From Rouxiella sp. S1S-2 (GTDB taxonomy: Bacteria > Pseudomonadota > Gammaproteobacteria > Enterobacterales > Enterobacteriaceae), in the NCBI RefSeq assembly GCF_009208105.1, contig NZ_WFKL01000002.1:120130-184129 (forward strand): a DNA stretch of 64,000 bases, read 5' to 3'. Shown piece after piece: positions 13,533 through 48,155 of the stretch (position 1 is the first letter of the stretch; each line of letters starts with the position of its first letter). A program made the position numbers and the translations under genes. The notes beneath the pieces are model-generated. The model saw only the letters and a program-made list of their open reading frames with translations. It made no database searches and was not told where the DNA came from.

Positions 13533-13632
13533 AACCTGGTTATAACGATGCGGTATGACGGTATGTCAGACGAATACTGAACAGTACGATGTTATTGTTA
13601 AACACTGAAATAATAATGTCCGCTTCTGGCAC

Positions 13633-13652
13633 AGGGCTGCTGTTGCAGCCCT
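13633..13652 (-). terminator. Hairpin after recombinase copy 1
   Basis: AGGGCTGC, a TGTT loop, then GCAGCCCT: a perfect 8-bp stem 6 bases past the original stop codon of the recombinase gene. Conserved in copy 2 with a TATT loop. No T-run, so it may instead be part of the element end. Confidence 0.5.
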
Positions 13653-13658
13653 CGTGAG

Positions 13659-14262
13659 TTAAACTTCAATCGATTCAGATATCTCAAGGGCATCATCGAC
13701 TTCAATGCCAAGGTAACGAACTGTGCTTTCGAGTTTTTTATGACCCAACAGTAGCTGGATTACCCACAGATTTTTTTGTTTTTTTGTAGATTAGATAAGG
13801 TTTAGTTCTGCGCATAGAATGCGTGCTGTAAAGCGAATCGTCGAGACCTAGCTTCTCAATCCATTCATGAAAAATACGGTTATATTGCCGGGTTGAGATG
13901 TGGCGTTCTGAGCCGACGCGGGACTGGAAAAGATAGTCGCCACTTCGCAGGTGAGCCATTTTGATCCAGGCCGCTACTGACTCTCTGGTTCCTTTTGTCA
14001 GTTCAAACTGAACAGGACTCCCCGTTTTTTGCTGCAGCACTGTCGCTCTGCCCGAAACTGAGTGCCCATAGGCTACATCAGAAACCTTCAGCTTCACCAA
14101 ATCACAGCCGCGAAGTTTACTGTCCAGAGCCATGTTAAACAGAACCAAGTCGCATACTTTTCCTTCCCGCTCGAGTCGGATGCGAATTCCCCAGATATGA
14201 GATATCTGAAGAGGTCGTTTCTGGCCAATGATACGGCTTTTGTTCCAGGGGGACATTGTCAT
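13659..14262 (-). pseudogene. Short tyrosine recombinase, frameshifted (copy 1)
   Basis: Homologous along its whole length to the intact gene at 37013-37615. It reads well from ATG 14262 (behind GGAG) through the box I Arg (KLRGCDLVKL) and the THSMRR box. After YKKTK an A-run has seven A instead of six, and the frame shifts to a stop at 13738. Removing one A restores the final NL-VIQLLLGH ... VRYLGIEVDDALEISESIEV-type ending to a stop at 13659. As it stands it lacks the box II His and the catalytic Tyr and should be inactive. The translated open frame covers only 13738-14268. Confidence 0.75.
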
Positions 14263-14297
14263 GTTCAATCTCCATTGGGTTAGGAGATTTGATTATG
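14260..14297. repeat. Inverted repeat over the recombinase start, copy 1
   Basis: CATGTTCAATCTCC (14260-14273), a 9-base spacer, then GGAGATTTGATTATG (14283-14297). The arms are degenerate versions of the perfect 15-bp arms of copy 2, with one base missing from the left arm. They contain the ribosome binding site and the ATG of the recombinase. Confidence 0.6.
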
Positions 14298-14368
14298 GAT
14301 GTCCCATATGAGCGAAGAGCGGACATTGAGCACTTCGATCCCATGGTTTTAGTCAGTCGGAATAAATA

Positions 14369-14389
14369 AGTAATTCAGAGTGAATTACT
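14369..14389. repeat. Perfect inverted repeat between element and GntR gene
   Basis: AGTAATTCA, a GAG spacer, TGAATTACT. A second perfect palindrome, ATTCTTGCCGGCAAGAAT, lies at 14499-14516 just after the GntR stop (14522) and may act as its terminator. No gene is seen in 14327-14521. Confidence 0.5.
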
Positions 14390-14521
14390 GCATTTCCCTG
14401 GAACTTACGAGTTTCGTTTTAACCGTAAGCGGATTAGCTTGTCTGTTGCAGTACCGGCAAGTAACCAATATTTATAATAATTCTTCTAATTACAGAGGAT
14501 TCTTGCCGGCAAGAATAATGT

Positions 14522-15280
14522 TTATGAGAAGTTTTCCAGGACCGACAGGAACGAATTTCTGTCTCCATGCCCCTCAGTCAGTCTCACTCGCCCTTCAATA
14601 TCGGCCAGATGGTGATCCATTAACTCACGGGCTTTTATTAAATCCTTAGCTTTGAGGGCGGTGACAATCATGCGATGGTGGTCAGCACCACAGTCATCCT
14701 TTCTTTTTTCCTCGTAAAGTGACATCACGAGAGAGAGTCGCGCCACAATCTTGGCCAGCATTTCAGTCAACACCGGATTACCTGCCAGCTCGGCCAATAC
14801 AATATGAAACTTGCCAGAAAGCACCGTCTTGGATTTTTCATCGCCATGATGATGGGTTTGCTCTTCTTCGTCAGCCAGAATTTCCAGCGCATTTAGCTGC
14901 TCCGGCGTTGCGCGCGCAATGACGAACTCCAATAACAGTGATTCAATCCTTCGACGTGCTTCAAAAAGATTTCTGGCCTGCTCAATGCTCGGCTCTGCAA
15001 CAAAAGTACCTCGATTGCGCTTTCGCTCCAGAAGATGATCGCTTTCCAAAACCCCCAAGGCGCCGCGCACTACCGTTCTGCTGACACCAAAATGTTCGGC
15101 AATCGCTTCTTCCAGTATTTTGGTGCCAGGAGTCAGCGCGCCTTCTCCAATCGCGGCAGCTAATGTCATACGAATACGTTCTGAAACATCATCGTGACTG
15201 TCAGCGCTGTTTATCGCCTTATTGGCGGCTGACGTCGCTTTATTGCTCGTGCCGCGCGATTTTTTGATTATCTTTTCCAC
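14522..15280 (-). CDS. GntR-family regulator, FadR/FCD subgroup
   Basis: A 252-residue repressor. The winged helix-turn-helix is near residues 30-90 (ILEEAIAEHFGVSRTVVRGALGVLE, then RNRGTFVAEPS). The all-helical FCD domain follows (residues about 100-235), with metal/ligand His positions in KFHIVLAELAGN and DHHRMIVTALKA. The GTG at 15280 has AAGAGG six bases upstream; the frame extends to a TTG at 15313 without a good site. It lies beside the isomerase and ABC-transporter cluster and likely controls it and itself through the palindrome at 15323-15340. Confidence 0.82.
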   Translation of the reverse strand: MEKIIKKSRGTSNKATSAANKAINSADSHDDVSERIRMTLAAAIGEGALTPGTKILEEAIAEHFGVSRTVVRGALGVLESDHLLERKRNRGTFVAEPSIEQARNLFEARRRIESLLLEFVIARATPEQLNALEILADEEEQTHHHGDEKSKTVLSGKFHIVLAELAGNPVLTEMLAKIVARLSLVMSLYEEKRKDDCGADHHRMIVTALKAKDLIKARELMDHHLADIEGRVRLTEGHGDRNSFLSVLENFS

Positions 15281-15322
15281 CACAAACCTCTTAAGCACAC
15301 ATGCAGATAACAACGGGTTTTT

Positions 15323-16558: not shown

Positions 16559-16570
16559 TACTGACTCCAA

Positions 16571-24534: not shown

Positions 24535-24600
24535 ATTTTCGCTTTTTGAACATGGCAGCCGAAGCAATACTCGGGGCTACTTTGAGCGAACAACGGACAT
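24535..24600 (+). repeat. Dispersed intergenic element, 66-bp copy
   Basis: The right end TTTGAGCGAACAACGGACAT (24581-24600) is clear (18 of 20). The left half is diverged but aligns as CGCTTTTTGAACATGGCAGC in place of CGCTTTTGGCACATAGCAGC. Size fits the 67-bp class. Confidence 0.6.
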
Positions 24601-24620
24601 GCCATTAAATGAATAACTGG

Positions 24621-24851
24621 TTAAAGATACTGTTCGTCCTCCACAGCTTCTCGGACTTTAAGCAACGCTTTTTGTAAGCTCTCAATTGTGACAGACCCAA
24701 GAGCAATCCTGAGATCCTGTGGAACGACCAGTGACGTGCTAAAGGGTTCTGCAGTTGAAACGGAAATATTGCAGCCCATCAAATCCCTTGCGACCCGGTC
24801 CGCTCTTGCTTCATCTGGTAAAGTTAACCCATCCTTTGGGAAACGGCGGGG
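24621..24851 (-). pseudogene. C-terminal fragment of a PLP-dependent aminotransferase/MocR-type protein
   Basis: The minus strand reads RRFPKDGLTLPDEARADRVA and on through TAEPFSTSLVVPQDLRIALGSVTIESLQKALLKVREAVEDEQYL to a stop at 24621. The LRIALGSV...L..AL.KVREA pattern is the C-terminus of fold-type I PLP proteins, especially MocR regulators. About 75 codons remain of a normal 400-480. The fragment is in the same frame as the TetR gene and begins directly after the TetR stop codon, so the TetR gene and this scrap are fused apart from one stop. Confidence 0.6.
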
Positions 24852-25439
24852 TTAGCGTGCCTCTACACATGCATTAATAGCCAATGCTGCAATTTGTTTT
24901 GCTTCCTTACAAGAAAGCGCCTTTGATGCCAGCCTATGACGCATCGTCGCCAGTCCAATGACATAGGAAGCGATCAACGCTGCGCGAGCTTCAGTATCCT
25001 TTCCTGACAAAAGTTTGGATAAGGGACTGATAAACTCTGCGTGAAAAGAATCAGCGATTAGCATGGCAATCTTAGGATTTACTGTTTGGTGAAGTAGCAT
25101 TCCCAGAGCATCAAATGGATGTTGCTCTTCATCATCCTCTATGTCGTCTTTCAGTATCTGGTCGACAAGATAGGCGCCTAAGTTGTCAAGCTCTGGCGGC
25201 AAATGCGCTGCCACATCAAATCCGCCTTTGATAGCAGCGGCAAAAAGTTTTTCTTTACTGCCAAAGTACCGATTGATTAATGCAGCGTCGACCCCGGCAT
25301 CTGCTGCAATGTCACGGGTACCCACACTGTCATAGCCGCATAAGGAGAAGCGGGTTTGTGCAGCAGCAAGGATGCGTTTCTGTGTCTGAGCTGCGTCCCG
25401 TACGCTTACCCCTCTCTTTTTATTGCTAATCTCATTCAT
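24852..25439 (-). CDS. TetR-family repressor
   Basis: A 195-residue repressor. The helix-turn-helix spans about residues 15-60 (KRILAAAQTRFSLCGYDSVG, then TRDIAADAGVDAALINRYFGSKEKLF). The C-terminal helical domain should bind a ligand. Divergent from the SDR-MFS operon; a perfect palindrome in the gap is its likely operator, so the pump and the dehydrogenase should be induced by a ligand of TetR. Its last codons abut a pseudogene fragment read in the same frame; the original C-terminus may be altered. Confidence 0.85.
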   Translation of the reverse strand: MNEISNKKRGVSVRDAAQTQKRILAAAQTRFSLCGYDSVGTRDIAADAGVDAALINRYFGSKEKLFAAAIKGGFDVAAHLPPELDNLGAYLVDQILKDDIEDDEEQHPFDALGMLLHQTVNPKIAMLIADSFHAEFISPLSKLLSGKDTEARAALIASYVIGLATMRHRLASKALSCKEAKQIAALAINACVEAR

Positions 25440-25471
25440 CTTGGCCTCCTGACTTTGATATTTTCTACATT

Positions 25472-25491
25472 ATGTCATCACGCGTTGACAT
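25472..25491. promoter_or_regulatory. Upstream TetR half-conserved operator
   Basis: ATGTCA (25472-25477) and TGACAT (25486-25491) flank a TCACGCGT centre, an imperfect version of the stronger palindrome 24 bp downstream. TTGACA (25485-25490) could also serve as a -35 element for the SDR gene. Confidence 0.45.
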
Positions 25492-25514
25492 TAACTATCT
25501 TTGGGTTGAATATG

Positions 25515-25536
25515 CTTGTCATCAACTGATGACAAG
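25515..25536. promoter_or_regulatory. TetR operator palindrome
   Basis: CTTGTCATCA, AC, TGATGACAAG: perfect 10-bp arms with a 2-base centre, 14 bases before the SDR start. The TTGTCATCA half-site and its symmetry are typical of TetR operators, and its position would block transcription of the SDR-MFS operon. Confidence 0.75.
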
Positions 25537-25549
25537 AGTGGGTATAGCA

Positions 25550-26299
25550 ATGAACGAGAAAAAAATGATGGGTAAGGTTGTTGTTGTTACAGGAGGAAGT
25601 AGCGGTATTGGTCTGGCGGCAAGTTCCTTGTTTATTAAGGAAGGTGCAACGGTGGTAATTGCGGCTCGAAGCAGCGAGGGGCTTAGAAAGGCAAAAGAAA
25701 AGCTAGGAGAAAATGCTAAGACCTTCCCTGTTGATGTAGCTGAACCTGAAGAAATCTGTGCCTTGATGGAGCATGTTGGCACCACTTTCGGACATATCGA
25801 TGTGCTGTTCGCTAATGCAGGGATATCTGAATGTCCTGATATTTTGCAAACTAATGAGACCTTCTTTGATGATCTTATGAACACCAACGTCAAGGGTGTT
25901 TTTTATGCTTTCACATATGCGCTGCCTTGGATGTCAGTTGGCGCCTCAGCTGTTTTCACCAGTTCAGTGATCCAACAACGTGGTAAACCAGGTGATGCGC
26001 TTTATGCCGCAAGTAAAGCTGCCGTGCGTAGCTTCGCTCGGACATTCGCCGTCGACTCGCATGTTATCCAAAAGAAAGTCCGCGTCAATGTGGTAAGCCC
26101 TGGAGCGATCAAGACCCCTTTGACAGTTCAGGCTACTGATAACCCAGAAATATCGGCCTGGGTCAGCGACCAGGTTCCTCTGGGACGCTGGGGAGAGGCG
26201 GATGAGGTAGCTCGCGCCGTATTGTTCCTTGCTTCCACTGATGCATCCTATCTGACCGGAAGCGAGATTGCCGTTGACGGCGGTCTTGGTCAAGTTTAG
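25550..26299 (+). CDS. Short-chain dehydrogenase/reductase (SDR)
   Basis: A 250-residue classical SDR. TGGSSGIG lies near residues 14-21, NAG near 91-93, the catalytic Ser in FTSSVIQQ, the YAASK motif near 155-159, and a C-terminal DGGLGQV. The ATG at 25550 begins MNEKKMMGKVVVVTGG; an upstream in-frame ATG at 25472 lies within the operator region and is unlikely. Co-transcribed with the MFS transporter 33 bp downstream and controlled by the divergent TetR gene. Substrate unknown; such pairs often detoxify quinones or aldehydes. Confidence 0.85.
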   Translation: MNEKKMMGKVVVVTGGSSGIGLAASSLFIKEGATVVIAARSSEGLRKAKEKLGENAKTFPVDVAEPEEICALMEHVGTTFGHIDVLFANAGISECPDILQTNETFFDDLMNTNVKGVFYAFTYALPWMSVGASAVFTSSVIQQRGKPGDALYAASKAAVRSFARTFAVDSHVIQKKVRVNVVSPGAIKTPLTVQATDNPEISAWVSDQVPLGRWGEADEVARAVLFLASTDASYLTGSEIAVDGGLGQV

Positions 26300-26332
26300 T
26301 CCCTTAAGGCTCTTAAAGGAGCATAAATAATT

Positions 26333-27823
26333 ATGCAGGGTTCCTCTATTTCCCCTTCGGGTACAACGCAGATTGGCAAGGTCATGCTGCCTTTACTGCT
26401 CGTGTTGTTTATCAGCACGCTAGATCAAACGATTGTTGCTACGGCCTTGGGGCCAATTAGCCTTGTTTTGGGAAACCAATCGCTGGCACCCTGGGTTGCC
26501 ACCGCCTATCTGTTGACCAGTGCGGTAACGACACTACTTTTCGGTAAACTAAGCGATATTACTGGGCGAAAATTAATGCTTCAGGTCAGTATTGTTATTT
26601 TTGTTGTGGGGTCCTTGCTTTGTGCCTTCGCGCCGACCATGTTGTGGTTGATCGTTTTCCGTGCCCTACAGGGAATTGGCGGCGGCGGATTAAACTCACT
26701 GGTCATGACGGTCGTTGGTGAGTTGATTGCTGCTCGCGAACGAGCACGTTACCAGGCTATTTTGGGGATGGTGCCTGCATTGGCAGTCATCGCAGGGCCG
26801 GTAATGGGCGGCTTTATCGTCGCACATTGGGATTGGATGTGGATTTTCATGATAAATATTCCAGTTGGTGTGCTGGCATTTATGTTATTGGCCGCTCGTT
26901 TGCACCTCCCTCACCTCCGCGTGCCGCGTAAGCTCGATATCAGTGGTGGTTTGCTTGTAACGATCTTCACGACAGCTATTCTGCTTTTGGCTACAAAGGA
27001 TGGTAAAGGTATATGGTCCTCCTGGATTTTAGGTCTTATTGCTGGCTTTTGTTTTTTCGCCTATTTGTTCGTCGAGTCACGTGCTGTTGAACCTATAACT
27101 CCGTTGCATTTGTTTAAAAACCGTATTTTTTCTATCGCATCCATTTTATTTTTCCTCTCCACTGCAGTGCTTTTTATATGCATGATCTTTGTTCCTCTTA
27201 TGCTCCAACAAGTGTTTGGGTTGGGGAGTTTGGGAGCTGGCGGCAGCATTGTCCCTTTGTTACTTGGCCTAATTTTTGGAACCATAGTCAGTGGCGGCGT
27301 GATTACTAAAACGGGTTGCTATAAAATATTCCCGGTTCTCGGCGCAATATTCTCCGCTTTGGGGCTTTATGCCATGAGCCTTATCAAACTTCATACTTCG
27401 TTGACTATGATAATGCTGTCGTTGGGATTGGTCGGTATCGGCCTGGGTTTTTTCATTCAGGTCACTACTCTGGCCGGGCAAAACGCAGTATCACACCGTG
27501 AACTCGGGGTAGCTACCGGGGCGCTCAACTTCTTCAAGACGTTAGGCGGAGCCGTTGGCACGGCGGTTTTTGGTGCCATCCAGACTTCAGCCATGCAGAG
27601 TCTGTCGGGAGTAAAGCCTGAACAAATGATTTCTTCTTTCCACGCGGTGTATTTTTGGGCATTGCCGCTTATGGTAATAGCATTAATCCTGGCATTGTTG
27701 ATGCCGGAGAAACCTCTCTCAGAAAAGGTGTTAGAAATTGCAGAGGGAAATTCGATGTGCCTGAATATTGAGAAAAAGCAACACAAAATGGCCGCATGGA
27801 GCAGGAAGACGATATCAGCATAG
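26333..27823 (+). CDS. MFS multidrug transporter, DHA2 (14-TM) family
   Basis: A 496-residue inner-membrane proton-driven exporter of the EmrB/QacA type, with about 14 hydrophobic segments. The family motif LDQTIVATALGPI is in the first helix, GKLSDITGRK is the motif A loop, and RALQGIGGGGLNSL is motif B. No HlyD partner or outer-membrane factor follows, so it likely pumps drug or metabolite into the periplasm on its own. Part of the TetR-controlled operon. Confidence 0.85.
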   Translation: MQGSSISPSGTTQIGKVMLPLLLVLFISTLDQTIVATALGPISLVLGNQSLAPWVATAYLLTSAVTTLLFGKLSDITGRKLMLQVSIVIFVVGSLLCAFAPTMLWLIVFRALQGIGGGGLNSLVMTVVGELIAARERARYQAILGMVPALAVIAGPVMGGFIVAHWDWMWIFMINIPVGVLAFMLLAARLHLPHLRVPRKLDISGGLLVTIFTTAILLLATKDGKGIWSSWILGLIAGFCFFAYLFVESRAVEPITPLHLFKNRIFSIASILFFLSTAVLFICMIFVPLMLQQVFGLGSLGAGGSIVPLLLGLIFGTIVSGGVITKTGCYKIFPVLGAIFSALGLYAMSLIKLHTSLTMIMLSLGLVGIGLGFFIQVTTLAGQNAVSHRELGVATGALNFFKTLGGAVGTAVFGAIQTSAMQSLSGVKPEQMISSFHAVYFWALPLMVIALILALLMPEKPLSEKVLEIAEGNSMCLNIEKKQHKMAAWSRKTISA

Positions 27824-27825
27824 GT

Positions 27826-27859
27826 CAGTCTCGGCCTGAGAAACCGGAGACTGATTTTT
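27826..27859 (+). terminator. Terminator after the MFS gene
   Basis: CAGTCTC (27826-27832) pairs with GAGACTG (27847-27853), extended by GG/CC pairs with a bulge, and a TTTTT run follows at 27855-27859. It begins directly after the stop codon. Confidence 0.7.
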
Positions 27860-28018
27860 ACAGCAAACCCATTTCTTGGCGGCTTCAATTACCATTATTG
27901 TGCGCCGCATTGCGCATTACCTGAGCACAGGGGTTGAAATAGAGAAAGCTAGTTGATTCCGGCCTATTAACTAAACCCTGAATAGCCGACTGTTCAACGA
28001 TACTCCCTCAAACGGCTA

Positions 28019-34772: not shown

Positions 34773-35039
34773 AACTGGATTTGCGCTTCCTGCGGCATGC
34801 CAATTTCGGAGCGCGCTTGCTCGAACCCGAGGCGCTGTCGTGCAATTCCAAAATTCGTCAATGGTTATCACCCTGCGCCGACACTTTTGGATGGAACAGA
34901 AAAATGCAGCTGGAGTAGCGAGTAAGGTAAAGCACACTCATTTATTTTCACAAATGCCAGGAAACTTCGAATGAAGAGGCCCTATTCTCCTGGACGGTTA
35001 CGAGTCAGATTTGGAGTAACCAGAGGTTTAATAGGGGTC

Positions 35040-35056
35040 ATGTCCGCTCTTGACAC
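35040..35056 (+). repeat. Solo end of the dispersed element at the panB break
   Basis: ATGTCCGCTCTTGACAC matches the family left end at 16 of 17 positions. It overlaps exactly the point where panB homology stops (35055). Confidence 0.65.
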
Positions 35057-35456
35057 ACACAGGTATGCCGTTGCGCGTCAGTTGATGCACCGTGTCACAC
35101 AACCACTCCCCGCCCTCGATCTTGACCATCTGCGCACCCGCCTGCATCAGCTGCGCCGAGCTGTGCAGGGCTTGCTCTGGCGAGGAGCAGGTCATGAAAG
35201 AAAGGTCAGCGATGATGAAGCCACCGTTGTTTCCGCGCTTTACGCAGGTCGTGTGATAAACCATATCTTCCAGTTTGACCGGCAGGGTGCTGTCATTGCC
35301 CTGCAAAATCATCCCTAACGTATCGCCGATGAGGAGCATCTCAACACCCGCCGTGCTCAGCTCGTGGGCAAACGTGGCGTCGTAGCAGGTGAGCATGGTG
35401 ATCTTCTCACTGCGCTGCTTGAGGTTTTTCAGGTATGTCAGAGTGATTGATGGCAT
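35055..35456 (-). pseudogene. panB: Truncated panB (3-methyl-2-oxobutanoate hydroxymethyltransferase)
   Basis: The frame encodes the first 134 residues of PanB, the ketopantoate-forming enzyme of pantothenate synthesis, normally about 265 residues. Recognisable parts are [35 protein letters not shown], the metal/substrate IADLSFM, and VKIEGGEWL. After GIPVC the frame runs into the solo repeat end and stops at 35028. The second half of the barrel is missing, so the protein should be inactive. It is likely an extra copy, since panB is normally intact elsewhere with panC. Confidence 0.82.
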
Positions 35457-35634
35457 GGTGTTCTCTGCTAACTCGTTGCGTTATTAAATGTTGTTGCGGG
35501 TACGATAGTACCGACTTTCACAACGCTTAATTGTATTTCTCGAGCCGCCAGTCGCCTTCGAGCCTCGGCATGCCGTAGCACATATAGGGTATCTGCTGCA
35601 TGATATGTTGTTAATTATCCTGTATGTCCGTGCG

Positions 35635-36249
35635 TCAGAGAAACTGTTCTGCCAACAGCAGGGCCGCAATAATAATCATCAGGCCTCCCGAAATCCGGCT
35701 GACATTCTGCGCCGCGCGCGGGCGCGTCCGAAGCACCGTGCCGAAGCCATAGCCCACAAGCAGATAGACCACGCCGCAACTGATCACATGTACTAGCCCC
35801 AGCGCTATCATCTGCAGCGAAAGCGGCCAGGCGGCGTGGACGTCGGTGAACTGTGGCAGCAGAGCCAGAAACAGCAGAAAGACCTTTGGATTAAGCCCGC
35901 TGATGCAAAAGCCCTTGAGCGCCCACTTTAGTCGCGAACCGGCATCGTCACTCTGCCCCGCCGCCGGTGCGGACGGGTGGCGTAACATGCCTATGCCGAG
36001 CCAGAGCAGATAGCCAGCCCCGGCCACGGTCAGAACGGACAGTACGCCCGGCGCTCCCGCAATGACCGAGCCGACTCCCGCTGCCACTATAAGTGTTGCA
36101 ACAAGATGGCCGCTCAGCATACCGGCAACTGCTGGTACAACACGGCGTCCCTTGATGCCGGCTGAAATGGCGTAAGCCCAGTCAGCACCGGGCGTGATAA
36201 CAAAAAGCGCGGAAACAGCCCAGAACGCGGCGAACATACTCAGTGACAT
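35635..36249 (-). CDS. LysE/RhtB-family amino acid exporter
   Basis: A 204-residue inner-membrane protein with about six transmembrane segments. The family start FVITPGADWAYAISAGIKGR and the ISGLNPKVFLLFLALLPQF motif near residues 115-133 are both clear. It should export an amino acid or homoserine lactone-type compound. Divergent from an Lrp/AsnC regulator, a classical pairing in which the exported amino acid is the inducer. Confidence 0.87.
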   Translation of the reverse strand: MSLSMFAAFWAVSALFVITPGADWAYAISAGIKGRRVVPAVAGMLSGHLVATLIVAAGVGSVIAGAPGVLSVLTVAGAGYLLWLGIGMLRHPSAPAAGQSDDAGSRLKWALKGFCISGLNPKVFLLFLALLPQFTDVHAAWPLSLQMIALGLVHVISCGVVYLLVGYGFGTVLRTRPRAAQNVSRISGGLMIIIAALLLAEQFL

Positions 36250-36427
36250 GCGCCGTTATCCTTATTGACCCGATCTCTGACCGACCCTTTATAAACGTCT
36301 GAAACCTGCATATAGAGAAACCTTTACCTGCATATTTGTTTAAAAGTTAAGAAAGAATATCGCTTTTTATGCGGGATGTGCTTTCATAATAAACTTAAAA
36401 ACGTTAAATATCGGGAGGTTTTAAGTA

Positions 36428-36880
36428 ATGGATAAGATTGATTGCAATATTCTTGCTGAGCTTCAGCAGGACGGTAGACTTTCGCTTACTGACTTGGCAG
36501 AACGGGTTGGGATCAGCCTGTCATCCTGTCAGCGTCGTGTCAGAGCGCTTGAACAGGAAGGCGTGATCAGCGGCTACCGGGCGTATCTCGATCCGTCCAG
36601 AGTCGGACTGAACTTTTCAGCCTTAGTCTTCGTTACTCTGCGCGAGGGAGACCGACAGGCGGTCAGTGCCTTCGAGGCGGCAGTAAAAGAGATACCGCAA
36701 ATTATCCAGGCGCAGCGACTGTTTGGCGATCCGGATTATCTGCTTCATGTTATCACCCTGGACCTGCAGGCTTTTCAGCAGTTGTATGATGACAAACTCT
36801 CCGGTATGTCAGGCGTGCAGCGACTTATCTCAACGCTGGTTATGAAAACGGTCGTGAAAGATCGCGCGCTGCCTCTCTGA
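36428..36880 (+). CDS. Lrp/AsnC-family regulator
   Basis: A 150-residue regulator. The N-terminal helix-turn-helix reads IDCNILAELQQDGRLSLTDL, then AERVGISLSSCQRRVRALEQEGVI. The RAM ligand-binding domain (about 65-145) includes GDPDYLLHVITLDLQAF. It should sense an amino acid and control the divergent LysE exporter; 178 bp separate the start codons. Confidence 0.88.
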   Translation: MDKIDCNILAELQQDGRLSLTDLAERVGISLSSCQRRVRALEQEGVISGYRAYLDPSRVGLNFSALVFVTLREGDRQAVSAFEAAVKEIPQIIQAQRLFGDPDYLLHVITLDLQAFQQLYDDKLSGMSGVQRLISTLVMKTVVKDRALPL

Positions 36881-36900
36881 CGCCTGTGCAGGGCGTCAGA
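36876..36900 (+). terminator. Terminator of the Lrp-type gene
   Basis: TCTGACGCC (36876-36884) and GGCGTCAGA (36892-36900) form a perfect 9-bp stem overlapping the stop codon; a T-rich stretch (TTCGATATTTTTT) follows. Confidence 0.75.
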
Positions 36901-36985
36901 TTCGATATTTTTTAAGAAGTTTTTTTGCGCGGAGAAAACGTTGTGTTTAGGATCTGTATAAAAGTCGAACTTCCGCTTCTGGCAC

Positions 36986-37005
36986 AGGGCTGCTATTGCA
37001 GCCCT
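36986..37005 (-). terminator. Hairpin after recombinase copy 2
   Basis: AGGGCTGC, TATT, GCAGCCCT: a perfect 8-bp stem starting 7 bases past the recombinase stop, identical in stem to copy 1. Confidence 0.5.
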
Positions 37006-37012
37006 GACAACC

Positions 37013-37615
37013 TTAGACTTCAATCGATTCAGAGATCTCTAATGCATCATCGACTTCAATGCCCAGATAACGGACTGTGCTTTCCAGTTTCCTATGGCCC
37101 AACAGAAGTTGGATCACCCTGAGATTCTTAGTTTTCTTGTAGATAAGGTAAGGTTTTGTTCTTCTCATGGAATGTGTGCTGTAAAGCGAATCGTCGAGAC
37201 CAAGCTTTGCTACCCACCCATGAAAAATCCGGTTGTATTGCCGGGTTGATATGTGCTGGTTAGTACCGACCCGGGATCGAAACAAGAAGTCATTACTATG
37301 TAAATTACCAAGTTTTATCAATGCAGTAACAGCTTCTCTTGTCCCTTTGGTTATCTCAAATTGGACAGGGCTACCGGTTTTCTGCTGCAACACCGTTGCC
37401 CTGCTTGAAACAGAACTACCATATGCAACATCAGATACTTTAAGTTTTACCAGATCGCAGCCTCGTAGCTTACTGTCCAGGGCCATATTGAACAGAGCCA
37501 AATCGCGCGTCTTACCTTCCAGTTCAAGCCTGATTCGGATCCCCCAGATATGAGATATCTGAAGTGGTCTTTTTTGGCCTACGATACGGCCTTTGTTCCA
37601 CGATGAAGTGTTCAT
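37013..37615 (-). CDS. Short tyrosine recombinase/integrase (copy 2, intact)
   Basis: A 200-residue integrase-family protein consisting almost only of the catalytic domain, like FimB in size but not close to it in sequence. The catalytic set is visible: Arg in SKLRGCDLVKL (about residue 51), Lys in the beta-hairpin LQQKTGSPVQF, H-x-x-R in THSMRR (about 148-151), His in LLLGHRKLE (about 174) and the nucleophile Tyr in VRYLGIE (about 183). The ATG at 37615 follows GGAG; a TTG at 37621 is in frame. It lacks the usual core-binding domain. It is enclosed by the element ends and probably acts on them or on the inverted repeat at its own start. Confidence 0.85.
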   Translation of the reverse strand: MNTSSWNKGRIVGQKRPLQISHIWGIRIRLELEGKTRDLALFNMALDSKLRGCDLVKLKVSDVAYGSSVSSRATVLQQKTGSPVQFEITKGTREAVTALIKLGNLHSNDFLFRSRVGTNQHISTRQYNRIFHGWVAKLGLDDSLYSTHSMRRTKPYLIYKKTKNLRVIQLLLGHRKLESTVRYLGIEVDDALEISESIEV

Positions 37616-37651
37616 ACTCAAATCTCCTGCAATGTGGGAGATTTGAGTATG
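37613..37651. repeat. Perfect inverted repeat over the recombinase start, copy 2
   Basis: CATACTCAAATCTCC (37613-37627), a 9-base spacer, GGAGATTTGAGTATG (37637-37651): 15-bp arms without mismatch. One arm contains the ribosome binding site and the ATG of the recombinase. Two inverted arms around a short spacer are what a tyrosine recombinase core site looks like. The same structure in RNA would hide the ribosome binding site. Confidence 0.8.
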
Positions 37652-37741
37652 GTTGTCCCTTATGAGCGAAAAGCTGCCCTAATATTGTTGTACTTGTTGT
37701 GATTGAAGGACAGGTACACGCGCAGATTAGGCACTATGAGT

Positions 37742-38653
37742 TTATATCTTGCCAGTGAGAGTATTGATTAGCGCTCGCAGGGCAGATGAGACATGCCGAT
37801 GGCCCGAATAGTAAAGACACAGTCCTGGATATTCCGGACACCAGTCTTCAAGACATCGTTCGAGGCGACCATCGTTCAGCGCCTCTGCCGCAAGATGATC
37901 AGGCACGAAAGCGATTCCTATACCATCAATTGCAGCTTCTACCATCAACGGCTGATCGCTCAATGTTAGGGAACCGGTGACGTTAATTCTTTCGACAACT
38001 CCATGCCGTTCAAATTCCCAACGATATATCGCGCCACTTTCAAATCTGAAGCGGATACAATTGTGATCATTAAGATCTTGAGGCTCGACAGGCTGTCCTC
38101 GCTGTTTGAAGTAGTCCGGGGACGCAATGGCTGCGAACCGCACTTGCCCCATGACCGGTACTGCAACCATATCTTTAGGTACACTCTCTGCCAATCGGAT
38201 TCCAGCATCGAAGCCGTCTGCAACGATGTCGCTGAGCCTACCATCACTGACTATGTCGAGATGAACTAGTGGAAATTGGCGAAGAAAGCTCGCAAGAACG
38301 GGTTTTAGAACTAAACGAATAGCTCCTTCACTTGCATTAATCCGCACCATACCCCTGGGATCCTGACTACTACCATCAAGTTCTCTGATAGCTTCTTCTA
38401 GTGAGTCCATCGCCGGACGCAATTTCGTAGCGAGGCGTTCTCCTGCCTCAGTAAGAGACACACTGCGAGTTGTTCGATTAAAGAGCCGAACGCTTAACCG
38501 CTCCTCGAGAACCTTAATCGAATGACTGATCGCCGAGGGTGTCATGTTGAGCTGAATTGCGGCGCTGCGGAAGCTTCGATGGGTCGCCACCGCCAGAAAT
38601 GCGGCGAACCCCGACAGATCGTTGCCTTTTAATTGGTGAATTGCTTTCATCAT
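37742..38653 (-). CDS. LysR-family transcriptional regulator
   Basis: A LysR regulator of about 303 residues. The helix-turn-helix (FLAVATHRSFRSAAIQLNMT, then PSAISHSIKVLEERLSVRLF and NRTTRSVSLTEAG) is near the start, and the effector domain follows. Divergent from the zinc alcohol dehydrogenase. Several starts are possible (TTG 38689, ATG 38665, 38653 or 38650); none has a strong ribosome binding site and 38653 gives a typical length. Confidence 0.82.
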   Translation of the reverse strand: MMKAIHQLKGNDLSGFAAFLAVATHRSFRSAAIQLNMTPSAISHSIKVLEERLSVRLFNRTTRSVSLTEAGERLATKLRPAMDSLEEAIRELDGSSQDPRGMVRINASEGAIRLVLKPVLASFLRQFPLVHLDIVSDGRLSDIVADGFDAGIRLAESVPKDMVAVPVMGQVRFAAIASPDYFKQRGQPVEPQDLNDHNCIRFRFESGAIYRWEFERHGVVERINVTGSLTLSDQPLMVEAAIDGIGIAFVPDHLAAEALNDGRLERCLEDWCPEYPGLCLYYSGHRHVSSALRALINTLTGKI

Positions 38654-38844
38654 ATCATCAATCATTAAGCGGATTGTTTTAATAGTCAACCCTCCATAAG
38701 CTGAGTCTTCAGTGTAAAAATCTGAAACTACAGCTCACCATTGAGTCCCTTCCTGACTGGTAATTGTCTTAAGGACATTTCATTACGCCAGTTTCCTCGG
38801 TGCATGAGTCACTCCAACACTCCAAATGAAACAAGGTGAAAGTA

Positions 38845-39876
38845 ATGAAAATGAAAGCAATAGTGATGACGGGGGCCAATCGCCCTTGGGAAGTTCAAGA
38901 AGTGCCTATTCCTAAGACGGAACCGGGTCAGGTACTTGTGAAAATTCACGCCTCGGGAATGTGTTACACCGACGTATGGGCAACCCAAGGATATGGTGGT
39001 GATATCTATCCTCAAACGCCGGGGCATGAAGTTGTTGGTGAAATTGTCGAGGTTGGCGCTGGAGTGCGTACTCGTAGGGTAGGAGACCGGGTAGGAACGA
39101 CCTGGGTTCAATCCGCGTGCGGTCGTTGCCCATACTGCAGAGAAAACCGTCCTTTGACCGGTCAGACTGCGATGAATTGTAACGACCCTGGCACCACGGG
39201 ATTTGCGTTACAAGGAGGCCATGCAGAGTACATCGCTATCGCCGCCGAAGGGACAGTATTGTTGCCCGAAGGACTGGGTTACGTTGATGCCGCCCCGATG
39301 ATGTGTGCGGGGTATACCACTTGGAGCGGTCTGCGCGACGCTGTGCCACAGCCACGCGATAAAATCGCTGTTGTGGGTATTGGCGGCTTGGGGCACATAG
39401 CTTTGCAGTTATCCAAGGCATGTGGGTTCGAAACCATTGCTATTACACATTCACCGGACAAGAGAGAACTGGCTACCCAGTTAGGGGCTGACCAAGTTGT
39501 TGCCAACGGCAATGAACTTCGAGATATTGGAGGCGCGGACATCCTGCTTGTGACCACAAACGATTTCAGTGCGGCCGGGGCAGCGATCACCGGACTGAAA
39601 ACGGACGGCCGGGTGGTCCTCTGCGGGCTCGACTTCACAAAGCCATTCTCGATCTCATCTGATGGTGTGCCATTCCACATGATGCGGCAAAGAGTGATTG
39701 GCTCAACACATGGTGGGCAACACTACCTCAGCGAGGTGCTTGACCTTGCAGCAAAAGGTAAAGTTAAGCCGATTGTCGAGACCTTCTCTCTTGATCAGGC
39801 ACCCGAAGCATATAATCGCCTTGTCTCCGGTAAAATGCGCTTTCGTGGCGTGTTTACTCCTTCGCAAGGTAGCTGA
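38845..39876 (+). CDS. Zinc-dependent alcohol dehydrogenase (MDR family)
   Basis: A 343-residue NAD(P)-dependent medium-chain dehydrogenase. Catalytic zinc ligands are C40 and H61-E62 in CYTDVWA and PGHEVVG, with another Cys in MMCAGYTTW. Structural zinc cysteines follow CGRCPYC (92-98), with the fourth at about 112; that last spacing is longer than usual. The Rossmann GIGGLGHIALQ is near 178-188. ATG 38845 follows AAGGTGA; a GTG at 38836 is in frame. Probably controlled by the divergent LysR gene. Confidence 0.86.
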   Translation: MKMKAIVMTGANRPWEVQEVPIPKTEPGQVLVKIHASGMCYTDVWATQGYGGDIYPQTPGHEVVGEIVEVGAGVRTRRVGDRVGTTWVQSACGRCPYCRENRPLTGQTAMNCNDPGTTGFALQGGHAEYIAIAAEGTVLLPEGLGYVDAAPMMCAGYTTWSGLRDAVPQPRDKIAVVGIGGLGHIALQLSKACGFETIAITHSPDKRELATQLGADQVVANGNELRDIGGADILLVTTNDFSAAGAAITGLKTDGRVVLCGLDFTKPFSISSDGVPFHMMRQRVIGSTHGGQHYLSEVLDLAAKGKVKPIVETFSLDQAPEAYNRLVSGKMRFRGVFTPSQGS

Positions 39877-39927
39877 CAAACGGCGCGGATTTTTTAGGCT
39901 TGCCTCTCTCTATAATGTCCTTGACTA

Positions 39928-39997
39928 GAGTCAGCTTTTGGCACACAGCAGACAAACACTTGACGCTCAAGGCCTGCTGACAACGACTAGCGGACAA
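39928..39997 (+). repeat. Degenerate dispersed element, about 70 bp
   Basis: The left part GTCAGCTTTTGGCACACAGCA and the right part CTAGCGGACA preserve both ends in worn form at nearly the family spacing. It lies in the 218-bp gap between convergent genes, which holds nothing else. Confidence 0.5.
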
Positions 39998-40094
39998 CAA
40001 ATAGAGCGGAAAGGGAGGAGGAAATCTCGCTGTTTTTCAGGCCAGCCACCTGGTTCAACTGGCCTTCATTGAAACGTTGTTACAGGGGAAGGGG

Positions 40095-41297
40095 TCAGGT
40101 CAGCACGACCCTCACCTTTAGTCCAATAACGAGCGTGGCAAAAAACATTATGCAACCAGCGGTGATGAAAACACCTGTTACGCCGCTGATACCAAAGAGT
40201 AATCCTCCCAACGCAGCACCCGCCGCAATTGAGGACTGAACTGCTGCGACTACCATGCCGCCAGCGGTTTCAGCCTGATCGGGAACGGAACGCGCTACCC
40301 AGTTTGACCACGCAACGGGTACGCCACCAAATGCCATCCCCCATAACGCGACGAACAACATCAATCCTTTTTCCTCTAGTGGCAGCAAAATCATGCTTAA
40401 TGCCGCAAAACCGACAAGCGCTGGCATGAGTATCAGTGTGAGACGCAGGCTTCTCTCCATCAGCCACCCGGTTAGCAGCGTACCGATAAAATTAGCGATG
40501 CCAAATCCAAGCAGTATCAAAGACAAACGATCCACATCAAGTTGGGCAATATTTTCAAGAGCCGGACGAATATAGGTAAACAGCGCATACTGCCCAGTAT
40601 GCGCAATCACACACCCCGTCATTCCCATCGCAATGCCTGGGCGACGGAGTAAATCCATGACAGATGCTGTTGTCATCATTCTACGCGGAGCCATTCCAGG
40701 AAGGGTAAACAGCTGAAAAATCAGTGTCAGCACCCCTACTGCGGTTGCAGCGATAAAAGCACTACGCCAACCATAAAGCCCACCCAAATAGCTCCCCAGC
40801 GGGATCGAAACTACGGTACCGACAGCAATACCGCTAAAAATAATGGAGAGAGCCCGCGGGACGCTTTTAGCAGGGACCAGCCGCATAGCGACGGCCGCAG
40901 CCATACTCCAGAAGCCTCCCAGCGCGATGCCCAACAAAATGCGCATGACTAACAGAACAGCCAGACTGGATGAAAGTGCGACCAGCAGGTTGGAGGCAAT
41001 CATCAGCACGGTAAAACCAAGCAAAACATTTCGGCGATCATAATTACGCGTCAGGCGGGGAACCATCAGACCAGCAAACAGGGCCACCACAGCCGTTACC
41101 GTCACAGCCTGACCAGCAAGAGCTTCGGTCACACCGAGATCGGCAGCCATGGGGGTCAACAGGCTGGCAGGAAGATATTCTGCAGTCAGCAAGCCAAACA
41201 CACCCATAGTCAGTGAAATAACGGCCATCCATGCGGATTCTTTGGGTTCCGAACTATTCAAACTCGCGGATACAGCTTCAGTTGCTTCATTTCTCAT
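40095..41297 (-). CDS. MFS transporter, AraJ/sugar efflux-like (DHA1)
   Basis: A 400-residue exporter with about 12 hydrophobic segments. Landmarks are SLTMGVFGLLTAEYLPASLL in the first helix and ALGGFWSMAAAVAMRLVPA near residues 125-145. This branch exports sugars, arabinose-like compounds or drugs. It is divergent from an AraC regulator, 62 bp away, which likely controls it. A homologous exporter lies at 44886-46085. Confidence 0.85.
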   Translation of the reverse strand: MRNEATEAVSASLNSSEPKESAWMAVISLTMGVFGLLTAEYLPASLLTPMAADLGVTEALAGQAVTVTAVVALFAGLMVPRLTRNYDRRNVLLGFTVLMIASNLLVALSSSLAVLLVMRILLGIALGGFWSMAAAVAMRLVPAKSVPRALSIIFSGIAVGTVVSIPLGSYLGGLYGWRSAFIAATAVGVLTLIFQLFTLPGMAPRRMMTTASVMDLLRRPGIAMGMTGCVIAHTGQYALFTYIRPALENIAQLDVDRLSLILLGFGIANFIGTLLTGWLMERSLRLTLILMPALVGFAALSMILLPLEEKGLMLFVALWGMAFGGVPVAWSNWVARSVPDQAETAGGMVVAAVQSSIAAGAALGGLLFGISGVTGVFITAGCIMFFATLVIGLKVRVVLT

Positions 41298-41359
41298 AAC
41301 ACACTCTACTTGGAGAAAAATTATAACGCTTAGTCTAGAGTTGAGTCGCGGGACGATCT

Positions 41360-42382
41360 ATGATGCCACATCCTGATTTTTTACCCGAAACTCCGATTAT
41401 GCATGTTAATAAACATTTTGCCCTTTCATCCGAGCTCATCAGTGAATTGCTGCTGGAAATGCGTCTGCGTGGCGTGCAGTATCGCCGTTTACAGACTGGC
41501 TCTGAGTTTGGCGTCGGTTTTAGCAACAGACCGGGACATGCCTATTTTCATTACATCGCTGTAGGTACTGCTCTGCTTCGCACACACGATGGTACATTGC
41601 ACGAACTGAAAGCCGGCAGCATGGTATTCATGCCGCAGGGTGAGGATCATCAGCTTGTATCGGATGTCAGCTGTTCATTTCAACATATCGACACGTTAGG
41701 CTCTGCTCCTTTAGGCGAGGCCGTCAGCGGAATCAATACTTGCCCGAGTTCGCATCCGACACCCAGCACGGTTCTGTTTTATGGCTGTATGGAGTTCGAT
41801 CTCGGTGGAATGCAGGGTCTTGGTAAACTGATGCCGCAAGCCATAGTGGTTGAGGCAAATGAACAGATCTATCCGGGGCTGGTTCCCATTCTGGGCGCGA
41901 TGAAATTTGAAATCTGTTCCGGACGCGCTGGCTTCGCGGGCATTCTGGCCCGCCTCGCAGAAGTGGCGGCTGCCATGATTGTGCGTGGATGGATCGAAAA
42001 CGGCAGCGAGAACGCAGCTGGCCTGATCGCTGCGTTACGTGATCCACGACTCGCCCGTGCAATTCTGGCCATTCATCGCGATACGGGTCGGGAGTGGTCT
42101 GTTGCTGAACTTGCTGCACAGTCACATGTGTCACGTTCTGTTTTTGCTGAACGCTTCAAATCAATCATCGGCATACCTCCCCTGCGCTATGCAAGGGAGG
42201 TGCGAATGCGCATCGCAGGTCACTGGATTATTCACGATAAGATCTCAATTGACACCGTTGCTCTTCGCCTCGGCTATGCCTCACAGGCAGCGTTTAGCAG
42301 AGCTTTTAAGCGCATCAATGGATATCCGCCGGGCGCTATGCGTCAGCGACCAGCAAGAGGCGTTAATACAGTAAATGAGTGA
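41360..42382 (+). CDS. AraC-family regulator with cupin sensing domain
   Basis: A 340-residue regulator. An N-terminal cupin (about 40-195; LKAGSMVFMPQGEDHQLVSD is typical of the cupin_6 group) senses a ligand. The C-terminal 100 residues carry two helix-turn-helices (AELAAQSHVSRSVFAERFKS and VALRLGYASQAAFSRAFKRI). Two adjacent ATG codons begin at 41360, another at 41399; none has a strong site. Likely controls the divergent MFS exporter. Confidence 0.84.
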   Translation: MMPHPDFLPETPIMHVNKHFALSSELISELLLEMRLRGVQYRRLQTGSEFGVGFSNRPGHAYFHYIAVGTALLRTHDGTLHELKAGSMVFMPQGEDHQLVSDVSCSFQHIDTLGSAPLGEAVSGINTCPSSHPTPSTVLFYGCMEFDLGGMQGLGKLMPQAIVVEANEQIYPGLVPILGAMKFEICSGRAGFAGILARLAEVAAAMIVRGWIENGSENAAGLIAALRDPRLARAILAIHRDTGREWSVAELAAQSHVSRSVFAERFKSIIGIPPLRYAREVRMRIAGHWIIHDKISIDTVALRLGYASQAAFSRAFKRINGYPPGAMRQRPARGVNTVNE

Positions 42383-42484
42383 ATGTTCCTTTAGCATTTG
42401 CTGGATTCACTGTAGGAGACCGCTCTCAACATTAAAAACTGAGCGGAAACGGCTTTTCACCACTCAAGGTATCGCAATTTCTTT

Positions 42485-42508
42485 TATGTCCGCTATTGGC
42501 ACGAAGCA
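42485..42508 (+). repeat. Solo left end of the dispersed element
   Basis: ATGTCCGCTATTGGCACGAA and the next four bases match the family left end and the GAAGCAG inner bases of the 47397 copy. The expected right end would fall inside the LysR gene at about 42532-42551 and is absent. Confidence 0.6.
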
Positions 42509-46085: not shown

Positions 46086-46099
46086 GTAATCATTACTCT

Positions 46100-46349: not shown

Positions 46350-46444
46350 GTTTATCTCCTTGTGAGGACTGCAGTATCATCCTGCTGAAAGTGATAAAAC
46401 AGACCTGAAAACGGAGAGCCGTTTTCCATAATTGGAAAAAAGAT

Positions 46445-47338
46445 ATGAAAACAGGTTTTAACTGGGATGATACTCGGATTTTCCTGGCAATCGTTCGTGC
46501 GGGTACGCTGAGTGGTGCAGCAGAAGCGATGGAAATGGGCATTGCAACGATTTCAAGAAGGCTGGACCGGCTTGAACAGTCGTTGGCAGTACCACTTTTC
46601 AGCAGGCATCAGAGCGGATACCGGCTGACAGATGATGGCGAAGCTCTGCTGGAACGGGCTGAGGCACTCGAATATGCGGGTCTCGCTTTCGGTGAAACAG
46701 CGAAACTGCAGGGTAATGTTGCTGGGCTTGTCCGGCTGGCAACATCAGACAATCTGGCCACGCATTTTATCCTGCCTTCGCTGAAAGGGCTTCTGGAAAA
46801 GCATCCTGAGCTGCGGGTGGAAGTGCTGAGCGGTGTTCAGTCAGTCAATCTGCATCGGAGAGACGCCGATATAGCAATAAGGATGGTCAAGCCTGACAGC
46901 GGGAATCTGACGTTAAAGCGTCTCGGAACCATAGGGTTTGGATTATATGGTGATGATGCATATCTAAAAATACTGGCTGATGAACCCGCTGGTTTATCTT
47001 TGAATAACGCTAATTATGTGGGCTGGTCGGAATCACACCAACACCTTCCTGCTGCACGATGGATATCGCGGATGCTTCGCGGCAGGCCGTGCAGAGTGGA
47101 AGCAAACACACTCGTGGCACAGGTATCCGCAGTTTCAGCTGGCCTAGGTTTAGGGGTTTTGCCACATTTTATGGCCAGGAAAAACGGTCTGCATTGTGTT
47201 AACCCTGATATCGGTTTGGATCAGGCATTATGGCTGGTGATGCATTCAGACTTAGCGGGTTCACGGCGAGTCAGAGCAATCGCAGACCATTTAATTGCAG
47301 TATTGGATGGATATAAAGATCAACTGACAATGCCATAA
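46445..47338 (+). CDS. LysR-family transcriptional regulator
   Basis: A 297-residue LysR regulator: DDTRIFLAIVRAGTLSGAAE, then AMEMGIATISRRLDRLEQSL and FSRHQSGYRLTDDGE near residues 6-65. The effector domain follows. Divergent from the broken aldo/keto reductase and its MFS partner. Such regulators normally activate the reductase in response to its substrate. Confidence 0.85.
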   Translation: MKTGFNWDDTRIFLAIVRAGTLSGAAEAMEMGIATISRRLDRLEQSLAVPLFSRHQSGYRLTDDGEALLERAEALEYAGLAFGETAKLQGNVAGLVRLATSDNLATHFILPSLKGLLEKHPELRVEVLSGVQSVNLHRRDADIAIRMVKPDSGNLTLKRLGTIGFGLYGDDAYLKILADEPAGLSLNNANYVGWSESHQHLPAARWISRMLRGRPCRVEANTLVAQVSAVSAGLGLGVLPHFMARKNGLHCVNPDIGLDQALWLVMHSDLAGSRRVRAIADHLIAVLDGYKDQLTMP

Positions 47339-47396
47339 ACATTTTATTCTTACTTCCAGATATTTGTCTGAATGCTGGATAAGGTTGGCATTGGTG

Positions 47397-47463
47397 ATGT
47401 CCGCGCTTGGCACGAAGCAGACATGCTGATGTGAATGGTCAGTTTTGAGCGAAGAGCGGACCT
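47397..47463 (+). repeat. Dispersed intergenic element, 67-bp copy
   Basis: The left end ATGTCCGCGCTTGGCAC (47397-47413) and right end TTTGAGCGAAGAGCGGACCT (47444-47463) enclose 30 bases. It sits 5 bp past the stop of the GNAT gene on the other strand. Best-preserved copy of the short class. Confidence 0.85.
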
Positions 47464-47468
47464 GAGTC

Positions 47469-47978
47469 CTAAAAGATAACCCACATTGCTATACGTCGCG
47501 CCGGAATGAAACCTATAGAGATCTCTTCAGCGATTAGGCTTACCAGATGCGGAGGTCGTGCGTGGCCTTCCACAATATTAAATCCTAATGTACCGTAAAA
47601 TTTGGCATTAAAAGCGACCATTTTGTCTGTTGTCAGCGTGGCCCCAGCCAGACCGCGTTGTTGCCCAGTATGGAGAATTCTCTGCATAAGCAGTCTGCCT
47701 ATCCCATGGCGTTGCCATTGCGGATGCACATCAATTTCAGCAATGTGCAGCCATGTGTCTTCAACCTTTCCTGCTACAAATCCTACAGGAACTGAATCAG
47801 GTGTATAGGCCGTTAGCAACAGGCCGTTACGACTGAAATTGCTCAATTCCTCAAGGCTGCATGCGCCCGCCTCGCCTGTAACCGCACCTGCATTACGCAA
47901 TGTTTCAAAAGCAGCCAGTTCAATCGCGCGAAGTTTGTCAAAGTGCTCAGGATGAGTGGGACTGATAGTGAAATCCAT
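47469..47978 (-). CDS. GNAT-family N-acetyltransferase
   Basis: A 169-residue acetyl-CoA-dependent acetyltransferase. The acetyl-CoA loop is HPQWQRHGIGRLLMQ near residues 84-98, with the YGTLGFNIVEG C-terminal element. The ATG at 47978 has GGAG at a good distance; in-frame ATGs at 48005 and 47993 are less well placed. Substrate unknown. Monocistronic, flanked on both sides by 67-bp repeats. Confidence 0.83.
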   Translation of the reverse strand: MDFTISPTHPEHFDKLRAIELAAFETLRNAGAVTGEAGACSLEELSNFSRNGLLLTAYTPDSVPVGFVAGKVEDTWLHIAEIDVHPQWQRHGIGRLLMQRILHTGQQRGLAGATLTTDKMVAFNAKFYGTLGFNIVEGHARPPHLVSLIAEEISIGFIPARRIAMWVIF

Positions 47979-48088
47979 GACTTGGTTCTCCATGAATGAT
48001 GTCATAATTTTTAGGGTCTTTAGTTCTCTATGAGCTGGAAACAGGAATGAACCCTTCTCACTGAATAAATCTTAACATGATGAATGCC

Positions 48089-48155
48089 ACGTCCGTTTCT
48101 GGCACATAAACGCCCTTAACAGTGACCGCGGCGGCTTTGAGCGAAAAGCGGACGT
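48089..48155 (+). repeat. Dispersed intergenic element, 67-bp copy
   Basis: The left end ACGTCCGTTTCTGGCAC (48089-48105) and right end TTTGAGCGAAAAGCGGACGT (48136-48155) enclose 30 bases. Same length and spacing as the copies at 28019 and 47397. Confidence 0.8.

Follow-up and report, generated by a model that had tools for sequence, protein, structure and literature searches.

Integrons hold small cassettes of accessory genes in one-directional arrays of sites, with cargo such as GNAT acetyltransferases, LysE exporters and glyoxalases, and some of these arrays have no integrase. FimB/FimE-type recombinases, which are about 200 amino acids long and consist of the catalytic domain only, invert a promoter segment. 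The dif modules of Acinetobacter Rep_3 plasmids are described as alternating C and D modules bounded by sites with a 6-bp spacer and added in pairs; they are said there to be unique to Acinetobacter, with host XerC/XerD assumed to act on them (PMC13141974). Here, we describe a 67-bp unit from Rouxiella sp. S1S-2 that is very probably the double recombination site of a gene-cassette system, the recombinase of which, of the P0002 family, is carried within some of the sites. The unit recurs along the terminal 64,000 nucleotides (the window) of a 184,129-bp contig, one of the two that make up this 5.36-Mb genome, and the best plasmid matches of the window lie in Erwinia, Rahnella and Pantoea. Comparison of DNA between loci establishes a two-core anatomy, alternation and common orientation of the cores, breakpoints at the central hexamers, exchange of cassettes between genera, and three arrangements of one region. 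A full-text search of the open-licence literature found no description of the sites, or of the recombinase together with cassettes, and Rfam gives no match over the sites at its gathering threshold.

Each 67-bp unit consists of two 28-bp tyrosine-recombinase cores with an 11-6-11 layout, in which two arms, inverted repeats of each other (about GTCCGCT ... AGCGGAC), flank a 6-bp centre. The two centres differ, being TGGCAC in the core termed L and GAGCGA in the core termed R, and the consensus of 23 aligned double sites reads ATGTCCGCT-nn-TGGCAC-nn-AGCGGAC...filler...GTCCGCT-nn-GAGCGA-nn-AGCGGACAT. A weight matrix built from the two half-ends (threshold 12) finds 19 cores in the window vs none in one shuffled copy of it, while the right-end motif, with up to two mismatches allowed, is found 11 times where 1.47 would be expected, a count that 0/100 shuffles reach. 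Across 48 loci, the centre is TGGCAC in 128/160 distinct L cores and GAGCGA in 133/171 distinct R cores, figures that arise partly by construction because the central hexamer is part of the matrix. A less biased check is an arms-only search of 15 Enterobacterales loci (centre free, at most two substitutions, both strands), which returns GAGCGA and TCGCTC 24 times each, TGGCAC 14 times and GTGCCA 13 times, with the runner-up centre found only twice.

The loci compared here were collected via the recombinase, the sites or common cassettes, and some are near-copies, so the array statistics are descriptive and do not represent an independent sample. Neighbouring cores mostly alternate, with 127 RL and 109 LR pairs (236 alternating) vs 23 LL and 26 RR. 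The L-to-R interval is a slot filled either by a short filler or by the recombinase gene: the spacing between centres is 33-42 bp in 75/109 cases (peaks at 39 and 42), while in 21/109 (19 loci) the recombinase gene lies inside and the spacing is 660-690 bp; the other 13/109 have another spacing. The R-to-L intervals have the character of cassettes. They measure 150-4500 bp in 113 of the 127 pairs (median 1140 bp; four loci with common cassettes contribute nine of the 113), and 72/113 hold a single open reading frame (ORF) of at least 75 amino acids. In 57 cassettes the main ORF points one way, and in 54 the other. Cargo includes GNAT acetyltransferases, LysE, LysR, MFS, AraC, glyoxalases and short-chain dehydrogenases, and some of it matches defence models such as those of Lamassu LmuA/LmuB, an instance being the DUF4297 gene on an E. 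coli (Escherichia coli) plasmid (locus L171). Long arrays of partly single-gene cassettes of about 600-900 bp are seen on contig C2 of genome G025 (L187-L189). Where a locus has at least three cores, these share one orientation in 39/44 loci, and 13/338 cores dissent. In locus L192 (G003:C68), the array reverses direction at 7895-7934, a double site in which two L cores face each other; an inversion between sites might have left this.

Three forms (ARRANGEMENTS) of one plasmid-borne region, with common flanks 99.7-99.97% identical, differ in the order and number of their segments. Shigella sonnei CP049174 (L198) carries flank-C1-D; E. coli CP025845 (L200) and Enterobacter CP071862 (L172) carry flank-C1-R-C2-D, where R is the recombinase unit; and E. 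coli CP020517 (L146) carries flank-C2-R-C1-D. Every joint in the three arrangements falls at TGGCAC or GAGCGA. The arrangements differ in length by 2746 and 1692 bp, each the distance between two cores of one type (L-to-L or R-to-R), and in a separate pair of E. coli chromosomes (L167 vs L166) the difference of 4811 bp is an L-to-L distance. Excision of R and C2 by an L×L reaction would leave C1-D, and the resulting circle, re-entering by an R×R reaction at the R core that precedes C1, would yield C2-R-C1. The R-C1 joint also occurs in L197 (AP023435), and the common right flank extends over at least 3.5 kb.

Cassettes are likewise shared between species and genera. Block 39930-42502 of the window, which holds MFS and AraC genes, is 97.4% identical to part of Erwinia billingiae pEB170, ending at L cores on both sides with unrelated flanks, and the same block is found at 91-92% identity in Rahnella and Pantoea plasmids. 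The window cassette with TetR, dehydrogenase and MFS genes is 97% identical in a same-genus genome (L195), where the slots differ on both sides, and the GNAT cassette has counterparts of equal length at 92-93% identity in L191 and L195 among different neighbours. In Pantoea CP155068, a block homologous to 35033-36993 (83%) ends 8 bp beyond the next L hexamer. Over all recombinase-free shared blocks, 90/212 ends (55/135 distinct positions) lie within 30 bp of a core vs 2.2% of random positions.

The sharpness of these edges was assessed in 21 pairs of homologous cassettes, 12 from one E. coli/Enterobacter set and nine from elsewhere, two of the nine involving window 47449-48102 and one window 24586-28032. 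In the 12 pairs, both edges share 12/12 bases on the cassette side and 6/6 of the hexamer. For the other nine, non-homologous cassettes served as the null, with 5-95% identity ranges of 47-70% (left slot), 47-71% (right slot), 53-63% (left flank) and 53-65% (right flank). Left slots of the nine pairs are 60-77% identical (one of nine above the null, L191/L195, at 77) and right slots 53-63%; left flanks are 54-62% and right flanks 54-66%, with one at 66. In all, 35/36 slot and flank comparisons are at or below 66%, inside or beside the null range. A clean switch, defined as agreement at 10/12 bases or more on the cassette side but at no more than 8/12 on the slot side, is seen at 10/18 edges. 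These comparisons show cassettes recurring between species and genera in new contexts and, in the least diverged pairs, identity switching at the hexamers.

In the mechanism that we propose, the alternating L-R-L-R cores would divide the DNA into slots (L to R; filler or recombinase) and cassettes (R to L; accessory genes). L would recombine with L and R with R, as the two centres differ. Either reaction between direct repeats would release a circle of one slot and one cassette, or multiples thereof, and the circle could re-enter at any L or R core, re-pairing slots and cassettes; a circle with the recombinase gene in its slot would bring its own enzyme. The P0002-family recombinase presumably catalyses these rearrangements, which would proceed through circular intermediates, on double-stranded DNA and without an L×R reaction. 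With moderate confidence, we regard this as a third cassette-shuffling system beside integrons and dif modules, in which a recombinase gene within the site is swapped among cassettes, orthogonal L and R centres allow unlimited re-pairing, and versions with TGGCCG or GGGTCG serve relatives in Pseudomonas, Xanthomonas and Halomonas.

P0002 has several features of a tyrosine recombinase. Firstly, R53, K81, H150, R153, H176 and Y185, which fill the R-K-H-R-H-Y roles of the family, are invariant across 39 aligned stop-free proteins from Gamma- and Betaproteobacteria. Secondly, a structural model from this 39-sequence alignment (predicted local distance difference test, pLDDT, 86.5) matches XerA, XerH and Cre, whereas the prediction from the single sequence is poor (pLDDT 36); by sequence, the nearest solved structure is XerD. 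None of the six listed NCBIfam models reaches its cutoff (best match NF040815, 54 bits against 220), and the DNA-invertase model scores 25.8 bits against a cutoff of 222. The length of the protein leaves no room for a core-binding domain, and its match covers the catalytic domain only, whereas simple tyrosine recombinases are described as usually combining a core-binding and a catalytic domain (PMC8138268). In length and domain content, it resembles FimB/FimE; unlike them, it is associated here with many sites that bound cassettes. The ribosome-binding site and start codon of the recombinase gene lie under a 15-bp inverted repeat (window 37595-37680, minus strand; 85 nt folding at -28.9 kcal/mol), which could possibly exert translational control, and distant relatives have similar inverted repeats at the same position. 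A GC-rich hairpin directly 3' of the stop codon (window 36985-37005), overlapping the inner arm of the L core, could be a terminator. The copy of the recombinase in L046 is 108 bp shorter than at 26 other places, and in two E. coli prophages (L165 and L169) phage genes surround the recombinase units.

The family is widespread. DNA matching the recombinase unit is present in 880/5,426 E. coli genomes (at least 80% of the unit in 768), 7,986 of the 7,999 clusters scored match at E <= 1e-30, and only 3/50,697 phage records match at E <= 1e-20, all at <60% identity. Sites occur on plasmids and chromosomes of Enterobacterales, and the hosts also include marine gammaproteobacteria. Of 99 genomes (Rouxiella sp. 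S1S-2 itself counted), 29 have sites, namely 8/9 genomes with a recombinase match of at least 130 bits vs 21/90 others (Fisher p = 1.8e-4). In the related genome G025, sites are matched 28 times but a full recombinase is absent, so that sites either outlive the enzyme or are served from elsewhere. Within the Rouxiella genome, strong sites are found on the chromosome (1824666, 3580346) and a plasmid (22622), and weak ones, with E 0.001 to 0.2, on the chromosome (2668269, 3419489) and the plasmid (58632, 59327). The stronger chromosomal sites bound cassette-like segments as well. At the ends of recombinase relatives in Pseudomonas, the Xanthomonas group and the Halomonas group (L083, L092, L093, L094, L073, L074, L072 and L111), the centres TGGCCG, GGGTCG and CGGCCA recur. 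Only this recurrence suggests a variant of the site; taken one by one, recombinase ends outside Enterobacterales do not exceed the null in arms-only score.

By analogy, the logic is that of the Acinetobacter dif modules with integron-like cargo. Both alternate two kinds of module, gain modules in pairs and carry varied accessory cargo, and in both the sites have a 6-bp spacer and face opposite ways in turn; the 11-6-11 sites with exchange at the 6-bp spacer recur here, with imperfect alternation. The systems part in three respects. The dif modules have distinct XerC and XerD arms, whereas here the arms are alike and two fixed centres mark L and R; one of the two module kinds here contains nothing but a short filler or the recombinase gene, and the recombinase appears dedicated; and the hosts are Enterobacterales and marine gammaproteobacteria rather than Acinetobacter Rep_3/OrfX plasmids. 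We also take the site sequences to be unlike those of chromosomal dif and dif-module sites.

The alternatives to a double site with its own recombinase are not mutually exclusive, and our estimates for them need not add up to one. The best placed, though improbable, is that host XerC/XerD act on the cores, as is assumed for the dif modules, the resident recombinase being mere cargo. The 11-6-11 geometry and alternating inverted cores fit the pdif description, and many genomes have sites but no recombinase match. Against this, the arms are near-identical inverted repeats, whereas XerC and XerD have sites that differ from each other; the recombinase occupies the slot at a near-constant 660-690 bp in 19 loci (most of them fetched through the recombinase); and at the ends of its distant relatives other centres recur.

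A second alternative is the one favoured by the sequence-only reading, in which an autonomous 711-bp transposon moved by its own tyrosine recombinase and a 67-bp form resembling a miniature inverted-repeat transposable element (MITE) both insert at dispersed places. As with MITEs and their parent insertion sequences (IS), a long form, here with the recombinase, and a short form without it end alike, and there are further copies elsewhere in the genome. No sign of insertion by the unit itself is found, however. Cores share one orientation in most loci; what recurs between loci is the cassette between units, with breakpoints at hexamers inside the unit and not at its outer ends; and the stronger chromosomal copies bound cassette-like segments too. 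Gain or loss of a bare site accounts for 0/60 listed length differences between collinear loci, the single case of 55-80 bp having no core, a test of limited power in that 27/60 rows are one 108-bp difference (the L046 copy). We consider this alternative very unlikely. An empty target, at which a target-site duplication might show, was sought in six genomes of the genus with the flanks of one chromosomal array, which match only its own genome. The kinship of the two forms is retained as an L-R slot with either filler or a recombinase gene, and not as an autonomous and MITE-like pair.

We give as little credence to a true integron, with attC sites that fold as single strands, an IntI-type integrase and one crossover point per site. 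The one-directional palindromes suggest this reading, which we rejected in view of two crossover points, no excess of covariation and no attC boxes. The site is an imperfect palindrome with conserved mismatches and a length similar to attC; 79% of cells pair in a structure supplied by hand vs 35-40% when it is slid, and the cassettes, one-directional arrays, GNAT/LysE/glyoxalase cargo and integrase-free arrays are integron-like. Covariation measures of the aligned sites do not exceed shuffles, and RNAalifold's own consensus has seven pairs in a different register, which is why the structure was set by hand. Moreover, GTTRRRY/RYYYAAC boxes are found in 0/23 sites (outer 25 nt), breakpoints fall at both L and R hexamers, genes face either direction, and the recombinase, lacking a core-binding domain, is carried inside the site, with no platform seen and none searched for. 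Least likely of all is a mosaic made by homologous recombination between repeated sites or by IS-borne transfer: IS elements are frequent on the plasmids concerned, with an IS26 ~200 bp to the left of the shared region, but the sequence common across joints is about the 6-bp hexamer with imperfect arms, very short for RecA, and identical edge positions recur across genera.

A number of observations weigh against our reading of a P0002-driven cassette system. The link between enzyme and sites is drawn from sequence comparison, and 21/29 site-bearing genomes have no recombinase match of at least 130 bits; some of the nine matches are fragments or contain stops. The matrix and the site model were trained on 23 hand-picked sites, mostly from recombinase-fetched loci, so that core counts lean toward recombinase loci and the site-recombinase association is somewhat flattered; in addition, the loci are not independent. 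The 49 same-type neighbours make alternation imperfect, and orientation is mixed in 5/44 loci, including the window, where 17/19 cores agree. In the window, the intervals of 10.2, 7.0 and 4.9 kb do not represent single cassettes. Clean switches are missing at 8/18 edges of the nine pairs: seven belong to pairs of at most 91.4% identity in which the edge itself has diverged, and at the eighth, the left edge of L191/L195, sharing extends ~18 bp into the slot. For the three arrangements, the C1-R joint occurs in 42/87 matching plasmid records, whereas the C2-R joint is whole in 1/87. Their common left flank is ~1 kb, mostly IS26, and the plasmids differ beyond the flanks; it is therefore a travelling region, not one plasmid.

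Lone ~200-amino-acid 'site-specific integrase' genes of the P0002 family are very common. If the family runs a cassette system, it would offer a mechanism for many unexplained gene swaps in Enterobacterales plasmids and prophages, with cargo that includes anti-phage genes (Lamassu, for example) as well as acetyltransferases, exporters and regulators. Because its sites are simple and sharp, the claim is directly testable, and two non-cross-reacting cores, if confirmed, would be a new recombination tool.

Sites, recombinase genes and cassettes of the window are collected in the table below. The sequence-only reading had located the three 67-bp copies and the 711- and 712-bp units correctly, and its view that short and long forms share their ends and belong with a tyrosine recombinase, and that relatives are annotated merely as 'site-specific integrase' or similar, agrees with our analysis. 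Of the worn copies it listed, those at 24535 and 39928 are complete double sites, while 35040, 42486 and 48840 (given there as 42485 and 48839 for the last two) are left halves only, and the copy at 11234 is a remnant of half a site with a hybrid centre.

Table. Positions of double sites, half-sites, recombinase genes and cassettes in the window.
Feature	Position	Strand	Details
Worn half-site	11234-11253	+	Hybrid centre GTGCGA; matrix scan
Double site, slot = broken recombinase gene	13616-14326	+	L 13627-13632 TGGCAC, R 14310-14315 GAGCGA
Broken recombinase ORF	13738-14268	-	C-terminal motif absent, continues in another frame; frameshift near 3' end
Worn double site	24535-24600	+	L centre 24546-24551 decayed (TTGAAC), R 24584-24589; 49.4 bits
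Cassette: TetR regulator, short-chain dehydrogenase, MFS transporter	24590-28029
67-bp double site	28019-28085	+	L 28030-28035, R 28069-28074; 68.5 bits
Left half-site only	35040-35056	+	L centre 35051-35056 (TGACAC)
LysE exporter and Lrp/AsnC regulator	35057-36979
Double site, slot = intact recombinase	36969-37680	+	L 36980-36985, R 37664-37669; outer right arm worn
Tyrosine recombinase P0002	37013-37621	-	202 amino acids, catalytic domain only; PF00589 66.4 bits
Cassette: LysR regulator and zinc-dependent alcohol dehydrogenase	37670-39938
Worn double site	39928-39997	+	L 39939-39944, R centre 39981-39986 decayed (CAACGA); 38.0 bits
Cassette with preceding site: MFS transporter and AraC regulator	39945-42502
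Left half-site only	42486-42502	+	L 42497-42502
67-bp double site	47397-47463	+	L 47408-47413, R 47447-47452; 67.4 bits
Single-gene cassette: GNAT acetyltransferase	47453-48099
67-bp double site	48089-48155	+	L 48100-48105, R 48139-48144; 59.5 bits
Single-gene cassette: 181-amino-acid protein	48145-48850		No Pfam match at E <= 0.001
Left half-site only	48840-48856	+	L 48851-48856

The ~90 bp round the hybrid half-site (11167-11257) are repeated at 5605-5696 of L156, on the same plasmid, at 80% identity. Outside the sites, the window encodes an STnc100 small RNA at 59342-59530 on the minus strand (73.2 bits; gathering score 47).

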